Shown piece by piece: positions 18,157-24,586 of a DNA stretch of 40,841 nt (its first letter is position 1; the number at the start of each line of letters is the position of its first letter). The translations under genes were made by a program, and so were the position numbers. The notes below the pieces were generated by a model that ran no database searches, was not told where the DNA came from, and saw nothing but the letters and a program-made list of their open reading frames with translations. The DNA is from Chloroflexota bacterium. GTDB lineage: Bacteria; Chloroflexota; Anaerolineae; DTLA01. The stretch spans positions 1 to 40,841 of the forward strand of contig JADBJK010000038.1 of assembly GCA_014874485.1 (NCBI GenBank), given 5' to 3'.

Positions 18157-18213
18157 GATTTCCGCGCGACGTGCGCAGAGTCCAGTGTGTTGCCGCAAGG
18201 ATTCCTGACGGGA

Positions 18214-18409
18214 TGTCATTGCGAGGGCGCGCAGCGCCCGAAGCAATCCCAGCAGAGTGTCATTCTGAGACGCGAAGCGCCAAAGAATCTCGTCAACCGA
18301 GGTGCTTCGCTTCGCTCAGCATGACAGCCACAAGTTGTCATTGCGAGGGTGCGAAGCACCCGAAGCAATCCCCGTGATGCGAGATTGCTTCGCTTCGCTC
18401 GCAATGATG
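18214..18409. repeat. Cluster of family B palindromic repeats
   Basis: Three adjoining elements: TCATTGCGAGGGCGCG…GAAGCAATCC; then TCATTCTGAGACGCG…CTTCGCTCAGCATGACA; then TCATTGCGAGGGTGCG…TCGCTCGCAATGA. Each can fold on itself. With palindrome C (18418-18452) the cluster fills the roughly 300-bp gap between the tRNA terminator and the cytochrome b gene. No reading frame here looks like a gene. Confidence 0.85.
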
Positions 18410-18417
18410 TGAGAAGG

Positions 18418-18452
18418 CACGTGCGACGCACCTCGGAGGTGCGTCGCACGTG
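18418..18452. repeat. 35-bp perfect palindrome (family C)
   Basis: Two 17-base arms (CACGTGCGACGCACCTC and its exact reverse complement) flank a single G. Further copies lie at 24389-24423 and 29547-29577, with a degenerate one at 23614-23644. It ends 8 bp from the stop of the convergent-side cytochrome b gene and could serve as its terminator hairpin. Confidence 0.9.
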
Positions 18453-18460
18453 GGCCGATA

Positions 18461-19192
18461 TCAGCCCAGTTTGGCCCCGGTCTCCTTCTGCTCGCGGGCC
18501 AGGATGCGCTCGTACTCCAGCGGGTACTCGTGGCGCATGCGCTCCTCGGTTACCTTGCCGGTGAAGATGGTGGTGTCCAGCGGCATCTTGCCCTGGGCCA
18601 GGTGGGCGTTGTACATGTGCCAGATGAGGATGGCGAGGAAGGCCAGGAGGGCCTCGCCGCCGTGGGCCGCCTTGGCCGCGGGGATGAAGTAGCCCGGCAG
18701 CCAGCGGGTGATGACCTCCGGCCACATGAGGAAGGCGCCGGTCAGGAACATCACGATGGTGCCCCAGATGAGCGCCCAGTACTCCACCTTCTCCTTCCAG
18801 TTGAACCGGTCGTACTTCGGCAGTTCCTTGACCAGGCCCAGATTGTAGCCCAGATGACGCAGGGCGTCGGTAATGTCCTTCAGGCCCGGAATCATGGAGA
18901 AGCGGTTGGGCGACTTCTTGATGAAGATGCTGCGGAACAGGGCGAAGATGTGATAGACCGTCTCAATGCCCATCATGTAGGCGAAGAGGTGGTGCATGGT
19001 CTGGACGGTCTCAATCCCGCCCATGGCGTTCATCAGGTCCTGCGCCCAGTTGTAGTTGTGAAACTTCTGCGGCAGCCCCGTCAGGCACAACATGCCGAAG
19101 GAGATGATGAGCAGGATGTGCTCAATGCGGGCGCTTAGGTCAAAGCGGATGAAAACTCGCTGCTGTTCGGTGCTCATCTCGTGCGTGCTCAT
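18461..19192 (-). CDS. Membrane cytochrome b (cytochrome b561/FdhI-like) partner of the multiheme cytochrome
   Basis: A 243-residue membrane protein with four predicted helices (about 24-40, 64-88, 136-156, 178-198). Candidate haem b ligands are H25 at the start of helix 1, H67/H68 and H81 in helix 2, and H177, H192 and H197 around helix 4. This pattern fits the bi-haem cytochrome b subunits that link the quinone pool to periplasmic oxidoreductases, such as the formate dehydrogenase gamma subunit or thiosulfate reductase. The ATG at 19192 overlaps the multiheme gene's stop (ATGA, 4 bp), so translation is coupled; the open frame upstream lies inside that gene. A second ATG at 19177 is possible. 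The two products probably form one quinol-cytochrome c electron-transfer complex; its direction and terminal partner are not evident. Confidence 0.85.
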   Translation of the reverse strand: MSTHEMSTEQQRVFIRFDLSARIEHILLIISFGMLCLTGLPQKFHNYNWAQDLMNAMGGIETVQTMHHLFAYMMGIETVYHIFALFRSIFIKKSPNRFSMIPGLKDITDALRHLGYNLGLVKELPKYDRFNWKEKVEYWALIWGTIVMFLTGAFLMWPEVITRWLPGYFIPAAKAAHGGEALLAFLAILIWHMYNAHLAQGKMPLDTTIFTGKVTEERMRHEYPLEYERILAREQKETGAKLG

Positions 19193-21129
19193 GAGGCCTT
19201 CCCTCGCTTGAAGTGGTTCACGATCCTGCGGCCGATGTCGGTGAGGACGAAGAACGCCATCGCGCCGATGACCAGCGGGATCAGGATGGTGTAGAACAGG
19301 TTGACGTAGTAGGTCAGCGGCGCGCGCTCGCGGGTGATCTTGTAGTGCCCCGCCCATGCCGTGGCGAACTTGTCGGGCGCGTCGGGGTGGCACTTGCGGC
19401 AGGCGAGGATCAGGTTATCCGGATGCACGCTGGACTTCGGGTCCGTGTGCGACCGAATCTCGTGGATGCCGTGGCAATCGGTGCAGACGGCTTCGTAGCA
19501 GTAGATGCTGGCCGTGGGCCACTTGGTCTTGTACAACTGCACCGTCATCCCGTGAAATTCCTGCGTGTACGTTACGTACACGTCGGCCGAGAGGTTGTAC
19601 TTCGCCATGAGCGCGGCGTCCGAGTGGCACGAGGCGCACAGGTCCGGCTCGCCGATGCGGAATTGCGGCGTATTGGGATCAGGTATCTTGTGCGCGCCGT
19701 GGCAGTAGGTGCATCCGGGCACGTCGGGATTGCCGGTGATCAGTGCCGCGCCGTGGACGCCCTGCTTGTATTCCCCGTAGATGGCCGTGTGGCAGTGGGC
19801 GCAGGTCTCGGATGCAGCCTGCACGCTCTTGCGCAAGCCCTTCACGTCGTGGACGCCGTGGCAGTCGGTGCAGACGGGCGTCTTGATGGTGGGGTCCTTT
19901 TCGGCCAACTTGGAGTGGATGCCGTCCCGGTAGTCCTGATACACGTCCGTGGAAAGCCCGAAGCGGCTGACCACGTTGGGGTCCGTGTGGCACGTGGCGC
20001 ACAGTTCGGGGCTGGCCGTGTGGAACTCGCCGGTGCGCGGGTCGGGCATCTGGTGCGCGCCGTGGCAATCCTCGCAGACCGGTACGTAGGGGTTGTCTTC
20101 CTCTTTGGCGATGACGCTCCCATGCACGCTCTTCGCGTAGGTATCCAAGATGGTGCTGTGGCACCCTTCCTGCCCGCAAGTCCGGGAGAGTTTGTACCGC
20201 GGCTGGTCGGGCGGCGTGATGTCGTGCCCGCCGTGGCATTCCACGCAGGTGGGGACGTCGCGGTTGCCTTCCTTCAGCAGGCGGTAGTGGATGCTGTCAT
20301 GCTGCGCCTCGGTGATATCGGCGTGGCACGTGGCGCATGCCTCGGCCCTGCTGATGGTGAAGGCCCGGCAGTCCTGGGCTTCCAGTTTCGGGTGCGGGTA
20401 GCCGGTGATGTTGGTGTGGCAGCCGGTGCAGGTGATGCCGGCCTTGCCATGGACCGACTGGCTGAGTGCGGCCTGGTCCACCGTGAGCGACACCGTCTCG
20501 CCGCACCCAGGGAAGGTGTACGTGAGTCCGGGCTTGGAATGACACGCGAGGCAGCCCTGGTCGGTCATGGGGCCCGTGGGCGTGGGCTCCGGGACCGGCG
20601 GCTGTGCGGCGGCCTCGGGGTGGCAGGCCGTGCAGGTGCTCTCGGCGCGGTTGGCGTGGTCTGCCGGCAGTTTGCTGGTGGGGTGGCACGTCAGGCACGC
20701 CTCGCGCCCGGCGATGGGATGGGGCGTCGTGGGCGCTTGAGGCGGCGTCGGCGGCTGTGCGGCGGCCTCGGGGTGGCAGGCCGTGCAGGTGCTCTCGGCG
20801 CGGTTGGCGTGGTCTGCCGGCAGTTTGCTGGTGGGGTGGCACGTCAGGCACGCCTCGCGCCCGGCGATGGGATGGGGCGTCGTGGGCGCTTGAGGCGGCG
20901 TCGGCGGCTGTGCGGCGGCCTCGGGGTGGCAGGCCGTGCAGGTGCTCTCGGCGCGGTTGGCGTGGTCTGCCGGCAGTTTGTCGGTCGGGTGGCACGTGAG
21001 ACACTGCTCCCTGCCGGCGATAGGGTGGGGCGTGGGCTTGCCCTGGGCGACGGCGAGCACGGTGAGGAACGTTGCGCTCAGCAGCGCGACCAGGAACAGC
21101 GCCGCAACGATACGGGTATGTGGCTTCAT
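19189..21129 (-). CDS. Membrane-anchored multiheme cytochrome c with 19 haem-binding motifs
   Basis: A 646-residue exported protein. An N-terminal signal or anchor helix (about 7-27) is followed by 18 CXXCH motifs and one CX4CH motif (CGQEGCH), then a C-terminal membrane helix (about 610-632) with a basic cytoplasmic tail. The first six motifs lie in three near-identical 51-residue units (35 to about 178), each with two CXXCH sites, a DHANRAESTC linker and a Pro-rich spacer. The following section has motifs such as CHGGH, CHGAH and CHGVH, in which a second histidine can be a haem ligand, as in NrfB/OmcA-like and cytochrome c3-type proteins. GGAGG precedes the ATG at 21129. Translation is coupled to the cytochrome b gene. 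Likely role: periplasmic or surface electron transfer from the quinone pool. Many hydroxylamine-, nitrite-, sulfite- or metal-reducing systems use such proteins, but no active-site haem signature is clear here. Confidence 0.93.
   Translation of the reverse strand: MKPHTRIVAALFLVALLSATFLTVLAVAQGKPTPHPIAGREQCLTCHPTDKLPADHANRAESTCTACHPEAAAQPPTPPQAPTTPHPIAGREACLTCHPTSKLPADHANRAESTCTACHPEAAAQPPTPPQAPTTPHPIAGREACLTCHPTSKLPADHANRAESTCTACHPEAAAQPPVPEPTPTGPMTDQGCLACHSKPGLTYTFPGCGETVSLTVDQAALSQSVHGKAGITCTGCHTNITGYPHPKLEAQDCRAFTISRAEACATCHADITEAQHDSIHYRLLKEGNRDVPTCVECHGGHDITPPDQPRYKLSRTCGQEGCHSTILDTYAKSVHGSVIAKEEDNPYVPVCEDCHGAHQMPDPRTGEFHTASPELCATCHTDPNVVSRFGLSTDVYQDYRDGIHSKLAEKDPTIKTPVCTDCHGVHDVKGLRKSVQAASETCAHCHTAIYGEYKQGVHGAALITGNPDVPGCTYCHGAHKIPDPNTPQFRIGEPDLCASCHSDAALMAKYNLSADVYVTYTQEFHGMTVQLYKTKWPTASIYCYEAVCTDCHGIHEIRSHTDPKSSVHPDNLILACRKCHPDAPDKFATAWAGHYKITRERAPLTYYVNLFYTILIPLVIGAMAFFVLTDIGRRIVNHFKRGKAS
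20596..21027 (-). repeat. Three tandem 153-bp coding repeats in the multiheme gene
   Basis: Each unit encodes 51 residues beginning HPIAGRE and ending in a Pro-rich spacer; the third is incomplete at its end. The second and third units (protein order) are almost identical in DNA over their whole length, silent sites included, while the first differs at a few codons (QCLTCHPTD for ACLTCHPTS). That points to recent duplication or gene conversion, adding two haem sites per unit. Confidence 0.92.
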
Positions 21130-21170
21130 TGCAAGTCCTCCACTAGAGGGGGTCTTGGTTGTTGGGGCGG

Positions 21171-21185
21171 TTCACAGCCTGTGAA
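21171..21185. promoter_or_regulatory. Perfect 7-1-7 palindrome in the multiheme operon leader
   Basis: TTCACAG-C-CTGTGAA lies about 10-25 bases downstream of the predicted start of the multiheme cytochrome transcript. It shares TCACA/TGTGA half-sites with the CRP-like element at 21200-21215 but in the opposite arrangement. It is a candidate operator. Confidence 0.5.
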
Positions 21186-21199
21186 TTCCGCCACGACAT

Positions 21200-21215
21200 G
21201 GTGAACTATATCACA
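21200..21215. promoter_or_regulatory. CRP/FNR-family-like site overlapping the -10
   Basis: Read on the plus strand it is GGTGA-N6-TCACA, one mismatch from the TGTGA-N6-TCACA pattern recognised by CRP-type proteins. The six central bases are exactly the -10 hexamer of the multiheme promoter. A protein bound here would repress. Similarity alone does not prove binding. Confidence 0.45.
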
Positions 21216-23796: not shown

Positions 23797-24282
23797 ATGG
23801 TAAGCGAGGAGTTCAACGTTCTGGAAGCGATCCGACTGGCACAGGAGGCCGAGCAGAAGGCCGCGGCCTTTTACGATGACGCGGCCCAGAAGGTCAAACA
23901 TCCGCTGGGCCAGAGTCTCCTCAAAGAACTTGCGGAGTTTGAGCGCCACCACTACGCCAAACTGGTGGCGCTGGAAGAATCGCTGCGCAAGCGCGGTGCC
24001 TTCATTGAGTACGAAGGCAGGGAGATGGCGACGAAGCCGCCTTCGCCTGGGGAAATCACCGTGGATCGGCAGCCGACCCAGGCGATGGAGGTCGTGGCCC
24101 TGGCGCTTGAAGCGGAGCAGCAGGCCGAGAAGCGCTACGACACGCTGGCCGAACGCACGTGGGACCCTGTGGCCCACGAGATGTTTCGGCGTCTGGCCGA
24201 TGAGGAGCACACCCACTACCGAATCCTTCGCGACGTGTACTGGAATCTGAACAACCGCCGCGCATGGGTTTGGGCTGCCTGA
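23797..24282 (+). CDS. Ferritin-like di-iron protein (rubrerythrin-type, no rubredoxin domain)
   Basis: A 161-residue four-helix-bundle protein. Two helix pairs carry the carboxylate/histidine ligands of a di-iron site: LAQEAEQKAAAFY and EFERHHYAKL in the first half, LALEAEQQAEKRY and DEEHTHYRIL in the second. This EX6Y…EXXH arrangement is typical of rubrerythrin and related proteins, which reduce hydrogen peroxide in anaerobes. The C-terminal rubredoxin (CXXC) domain is absent, so a separate electron donor would be needed. The ATG at 23797 has AGGAGGG upstream. Together with the multiheme cytochrome it supports an oxygen-sensitive lifestyle, although this is only suggestive. Confidence 0.88.
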   Translation: MVSEEFNVLEAIRLAQEAEQKAAAFYDDAAQKVKHPLGQSLLKELAEFERHHYAKLVALEESLRKRGAFIEYEGREMATKPPSPGEITVDRQPTQAMEVVALALEAEQQAEKRYDTLAERTWDPVAHEMFRRLADEEHTHYRILRDVYWNLNNRRAWVWAA

Positions 24283-24388
24283 CGGGCGTTGGTAGCAAGG
24301 CAGAGGGGTCTTTGGGGCGCACTGTTGCTTCGCGATATTGACCAGTGACTGTATGTCATTGCGAGGAGCGCAGCGACGAAGCAATCTC

Positions 24389-24423
24389 CACGTGCGACGC
24401 ACCTCCGAGGTGCGTCGCACGTG
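24389..24423. repeat. 35-bp perfect palindrome (family C), second copy
   Basis: It has the same 17-base arms as the copy at 18418-18452, with a central C instead of G. The right flank GTGCCTTCTC is the reverse complement of the left flank of the first copy, so the two elements are in opposite orientation and share at least 7 bases beyond the palindrome. Confidence 0.9.
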
Positions 24424-24487
24424 CCTTCTCGTGCCATGGTGGGCGAAGCATCTCGCTTGGCGAGATTCTTCGGCGCTCCGCTCCTCA

Positions 24488-24515
24488 GTAGGGACAATTC
24501 ATAAATTGTCCCTAC
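24488..24515. repeat. Palindrome D (GTAGGGACAATT type)
   Basis: A 28-bp near-perfect palindrome. A relative at 37706-37735 differs in the arms by a G:C pair where this copy has A:T, a paired change that keeps the hairpin intact. Confidence 0.85.
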
Positions 24516-24586
24516 GGGCACTGCGTGCCCTCGCAATGACACACCATCCAGAATCCCTGCGGCAGAGTAGTAGCCCTATTTTCCCA

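Follow-up and report, generated by a model that had tools for sequence, protein, structure and literature searches.

What could a cytochrome c with 19 haem-binding motifs be doing when the gene that follows it encodes a membrane cytochrome b and no oxidoreductase lies beside the two? The question is raised by a locus of an Anaerolineae (Chloroflexota) species, the nearest named relative of which is the MAG "Anaerolineae bacterium A05DMB-I-30" (b subunit identity of 96%). The window, i.e., the whole stretch of DNA analyzed, is an entire contig of 40,841 nucleotides, and the features of the locus are collected in Table 1. A first-pass annotation of the sequence had proposed that the pair forms a self-contained, quinol-linked conduit. 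Here we ask how much of this proposal holds.

A maintained two-gene unit

The c gene contains 18 CXXCH motifs and one CX4CH motif (C318-GQEG-CH), as the annotation had counted, and its stop codon overlaps the ATG of the cytochrome b gene as ATGA. When the neighboring genes in the window were read, no further member of the unit was found, and the claim that no catalytic subunit stands beside the pair was borne out in this genome. On the 3' side lie tRNA-His, an ABC transporter, and a ZnuA-type protein, and on the 5' side lie a DksA/TraR zinc-finger protein, a sigma-70 factor, and a rubrerythrin-like protein, all three on the plus strand. Dispersed intergenic repeats (GCGAAGCGAAGCAATCTC-like) are present on either side of the locus (window 18200-18460 and 24216-24540). 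A plus-strand ORF at 19213-21204 was rejected as a chance frame; it runs antisense to the c gene, and homologues conserve the minus-strand frame.

The pair itself does not consist of chance ORFs: homologous pairs occur across the class, and comparison of the species of the genus gives codon-level dN/dS values of 0.08-0.13 (c core) and 0.11-0.15 (b), indicating that both genes are maintained under strong purifying selection. The pair is real and very probably functional.

Table 1. Features of the c/b locus (window coordinates).
Feature	Position	Strand	Basis
19-haem c-type cytochrome (CbcA-like c subunit), 646 aa	19189..21129	minus	haem motifs, Pfam, homologues 5' of b in 48 loci
Di-haem cytochrome b (CbcB/FdnI-like predicted quinone subunit), 243 aa	18461..19192	minus	Pfam, FdnI sequence and fold matches
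Probable cleavable signal peptide of c subunit, aa 1-28	21046..21129	minus	hydrophobic aa 7-25; AVA-QG site by eye
Three near-identical 51-aa (153-bp) repeats, two CXXCH each	20596..21033	minus	TRF period 153, 2.9 copies, 95%
Extra 4-haem block, about aa 315-430, including CX4CH	19840..20187	minus	tandem duplicate of next block, confined to genus
Ancestral membrane-proximal 4-haem block of 9-haem core, about aa 440-560	19450..19812	minus	haems 443, 473, 498, 549 in 43-48/48 homologues
C-terminal membrane helix and positive cytoplasmic tail, about aa 604-632	19234..19320	minus	hydrophobicity; pLDDT 80-89 for aa 621-640

The b subunit has the FdnI fold and haem ligands

The b protein has four hydrophobic helices and matches PF01292 (E = 4e-11). 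By sequence, it aligns with E. coli FdnI (1kqf chain C, E = 1e-6), which is also the sole confident fold match of its predicted structure (E = 2.8e-7, TM 0.69/0.76), the model being of moderate confidence (pLDDT 75). H25, H67, H177, and H192 align with FdnI H18, H57, H155, and H169, which we take to be the haem ligands of that protein, and are invariant in all aligned sequences that cover them. The four-helix cytochrome b described by the annotation is thus confirmed, together with its start inside the c gene.

Is the b subunit then an orphan gamma subunit of formate dehydrogenase N? This candidate was rejected: against TIGR01583, the protein scores 47.2 bits (2.5e-12), which is below the cutoff of 115.85, and neither FdnG nor FdnH was identified among the neighboring genes. 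The fold and all four haem-b ligands are shared with FdnI, but the partners of FdnI are an iron-sulfur subunit and formate dehydrogenase, whereas here the partner is a multihaem cytochrome c. The b subunit also carries two conserved histidines that FdnI does not have, H81 and H197, which are near-invariant in c-paired b subunits (63/66 and 61/67, respectively). Their positions suggest that they point towards the cytoplasmic haem and the quinone site, and they may be a quinone-site or haem-ligand signature. As a point against the quinone assignment, the surroundings of the FdnI quinone site are conserved only in part in the b family, where the positions of FdnI N110 and G112 vary.

The c subunit is probably anchored by its C-terminus

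The profile searches that the annotation had recommended assign the c protein to multihaem Pfam families (PF14522, 1e-21; PF09699, 5e-19; PF14537, 2e-18), just as they assign b to PF01292. Both ends of the c protein had been annotated as membrane helices, and both are indeed hydrophobic (aa 7-25 and aa 611-629). However, the N-terminal stretch reads by eye as a probable cleavable signal peptide (cleavage between ...VLAVA and QGK); therefore, the C-terminal helix alone likely stays as the anchor. Such anchoring had been called unusual, but it turned out to be near-universal in the c/b family, as is the overlap with b. In formate dehydrogenase N, the iron-sulfur subunit FdnH docks on FdnI through a C-terminal helix, so a C-terminal anchor would be expected for the partner of a b subunit of this type. 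The structure prediction of the c subunit was of low confidence (pLDDT 55). The last haem motif, at aa 577, is only 27 residues ahead of the membrane helix, with the invariant His595 in between, and the haem chain therefore plausibly meets the membrane.

The lack of an outer porin had also been considered unusual. None of the three genomes of the genus, which are 95-98% complete, contained Omp85/BamA, whereas seven diderm controls were positive. No outer membrane, and hence no outer porin, is therefore to be expected. From this absence across the genus, the pair would not be a porin-cytochrome conduit of the Mtr/Pcc type, which has an outer-membrane beta-barrel. The absence agrees with the view that Chloroflexota have a single membrane and with the lack of BamA in Ardenticatena (PMC5808234), and the same conclusion was reached for Anaerolineales (PMC7399161).

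Nineteen haems from a nine-haem core and added blocks

An alignment of 48 c partners, in which one genome of the genus is represented twice, splits the 19 haems into three layers, namely, a nine-haem core, a duplicated four-haem block, and three two-haem repeats (9 + 4 + 6). Each of the nine core haems is kept in 43-48 of the 48 proteins, and exactly nine CXXCH motifs are present in 27 of them. The haems of the extra block (318, 352, 377, and 420), on the other hand, occur in this genus only and are absent from all other aligned loci. This block is 38% identical to aa 427-559 over 137 columns, with a score of 268 compared with 53 +/- 9 when the sequences are shuffled with the haem motifs preserved. 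All three genomes of the genus retain the CX4CH at 318, which corresponds to an ordinary CXXCH at 443 in the parent block; the CX4CH is probably a genuine haem site.

The N-terminal layer varies within the genus: the sister species has two copies of the 51-residue repeat compared with three in the window protein, and the haem motifs number 17 and 19, respectively. In other lineages, 14-15 haems were gained in another way, by additional N-terminal haem domains. The change of haem number in homologous cytochromes has been described as an unexplored area (PMC7399161), and the 9 + 4 + 6 build provides a clear worked example of it, accessible to comparison within one genus.

Could the c subunit itself be a terminal reductase, e.g., of nitrite or a sulfur oxyanion, with b merely feeding it? 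Multihaem reductases are common, and the protein weakly overlaps the NrfA profile (E = 0.006, 16 bits, below the cutoff) and gave short, weak NrfA matches in a PDB search. However, its sequence contains neither CXXCK nor any other atypical haem motif of an active site, its best NCBIfam match, also under the cutoff, is to the DmsE decahaem electron carriers, and the added repeats resemble a wire rather than an enzyme. We consider a reductase function quite unlikely. A search of the genome for NrfA gave sub-threshold matches only.

Relation to known quinone:cytochrome c oxidoreductases

Among the systems compared, the pair is best described as a predicted two-gene form of the CbcBA/CbcL-type quinone:cytochrome c oxidoreductases, an assignment that is well supported: the b subunit is FdnI/HydC-like with four haem-ligating histidines, and the multihaem c, tethered by its C-terminal helix, is encoded adjacent to it with the ATGA overlap. 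In Geobacter sulfurreducens, CbcB and CbcA carry PF01292 and PF09699, respectively (PMC7726332). According to the published description, CbcBA (GSU0593/GSU0594) likewise consists of separate adjacent genes for a PF01292 b and a membrane-bound PF09699 c with no catalytic subunit (PMC7726332). In haem number, the pair does not match CbcBA in the strict sense: CbcA is a heptahaem protein, whereas the c subunit here has 19 haem motifs and a core of nine. The envelopes differ as well, that of Geobacter including an outer membrane and periplasmic carriers.

The core number instead equals that of CbcL, which has nine c haems and a di-haem b domain (PMC9129911). The CbcL/MtrH/MtoC family, with a range of 3-23 haem motifs (PMC6295460), shares the FdnI/HydC-type di-haem b and the multihaem c, but its members are single fused proteins with six membrane helices, whereas the present module is split over two genes and its b subunit has four helices. 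Mco of ANME archaea similarly combines a hydrogenase-type cytochrome b with a 7- or 11-haem cytochrome and no enzyme subunit (PMC9012536); it differs in its VhtC-like b, its methanophenazine carrier, and the archaeal envelope. By analogy, CbcBA, CbcL, Mco, and the present pair all appear to be cases in which a b subunit of the hydrogenase/formate dehydrogenase type was recruited to a multihaem cytochrome instead of an enzyme.

Predicted electron path and direction

We think it likely that b and c together form a membrane quinone:cytochrome c oxidoreductase of the CbcBA/CbcL type, with c haems that carry electrons through the wall. The two b haems would be stacked across the membrane, and cytochrome b would exchange electrons with menaquinone. 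The outer b haem would pass electrons to, or receive them from, the last c haems, with the C-terminal helix holding the c subunit against b. Up to 19 c haems could then conduct electrons from the membrane through the wall of the single-membrane cell, and the chain may end at other multihaem cytochromes or directly at an extracellular acceptor or donor.

In which direction would the electrons flow? By analogy with CbcL and CbcBA, outward flow by quinol oxidation is slightly favored. Alternatively, the pair might be a quinone reductase for electron uptake, in which a mineral, a partner cell, or a periplasmic dehydrogenase, as external or cell-wall donor, would feed c, then b, and finally menaquinone. 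In b subunits of the FdnI type, quinone is normally reduced at the cytoplasmic face with conservation of energy, and if the quinone site here is cytoplasmic as in FdnI, reverse flow, which is possible, would be the energy-conserving direction; the geometry of an FdnI-type b thus speaks for uptake. So does the occurrence of CbcL-family homologues in Fe(III) reducers and Fe(II) oxidizers alike (PMC6295460), as do the reverse CbcBA flow proposed in Seep-SRB2 (PMC10553843) and the anodic and cathodic currents given by Ardenticatena, an iron-reducing Chloroflexi isolate (PMC5808234). Against uptake, the characterized CbcL and CbcBA systems run outward, and the c/b locus contains no marker of direction. 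We regard uptake as a real possibility, though the less probable direction.

A more speculative extension of the oxidoreductase reading is that block duplication lengthens the c subunit into a membrane-to-surface wire that needs neither porin nor diffusible carrier in single-membrane bacteria, with H81 and H197 forming a quinone site unlike that of FdnI or binding an extra haem. We consider this extension doubtful.

Distribution, genomic neighbors, and other modules

A b homologue (E <= 1e-20) was found in 122 of the 298 sampled genomes of the class. A multihaem c ORF ends no more than 250 nt upstream of b in 62 of the 65 distinct b genes read, mostly with an overlap or a spacing of a few bases, and the c protein nearly always has a C-terminal helix. 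By the annotation's own test, a b gene that regularly kept company with other subunits would have spoken against the proposal; the neighborhoods instead show it consistently with exactly this kind of c. The three exceptions are a b gene at a contig end, an ORF with both c haem motifs and b, and a b gene whose c gene, 12 nt upstream, was missed by the choice of start. The second of these (L080), with six CXXCH motifs and b in a single ORF, resembles a CbcL-style c-b fusion, and at four other loci (L051, L056, L069, and L083), the b ORF carries additional C-terminal c-type haem motifs. The same c/b layout occurs in distant relatives, namely, Deferribacterales, a Syntrophorhabdaceae, and a Limnochordaceae MAG.

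A survey of CbcL-type proteins in 2018 found none in Chloroflexi (PMC6295460), whereas the two-gene CbcBA-like module is present in about 40% of the sampled genomes of this class. The module could be used as a marker by which to recognize respiratory electron transfer through multihaem cytochromes in bacteria with a single membrane. What is new here is modest, the kind of module being already known: a widespread two-gene version in Chloroflexota and a transparent lengthening of a haem wire.

The quinone-linked b/c pair of the annotation is supported. The term "self-contained" is doubtful, however: relatives usually have further multihaem cytochromes next to the pair (NapC-type, decahaem lipoprotein, FeS/NrfD), two of which have homologues at other places in this genome. 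The frequent neighbors are a NapC/NrfH-type multihaem protein (18 loci), a decahaem protein (13), NrfD (10), and iron-sulfur proteins (10), where the NrfD and iron-sulfur names were given by eye to two clusters without a family scan. In the sister species G001, a decahaem lipoprotein gene adjoins the pair. A fusion of cytochrome b/b6 and cytochrome c domains also adjoins it there (L096 2804-5290) and is absent at this place in the window.

Could the pair then be left over, orphaned or decaying, from a larger cluster to which, in relatives, the decahaem lipoprotein and the cytochrome bc-type protein belong? Both genes are missing at this place here, and the decahaem partner was not found in this 96%-complete genome, where its matches were in signal peptides only. 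However, c and b are intact in three species with dN/dS of 0.08-0.15, and the c subunit has grown, not shrunk, which makes decay highly improbable.

The two-haem repeat of the c subunit recurs in two other multihaem proteins of the same genome. A NapC/NirT-type protein with 13 CXXCH motifs on another contig (C82; L091 9723-11771) ends in two copies of it. An operon on a further contig (C62; L092 9404-12632) encodes a TAT-type iron-sulfur protein (DsrO/NrfC-like), NrfD, and a 19-CXXCH protein and is a second quinone-linked 19-haem module. Two molybdopterin oxidoreductase genes of the genome (C56:76018 and C73:20005) read through an in-frame TGA and are probably selenocysteine formate dehydrogenases.
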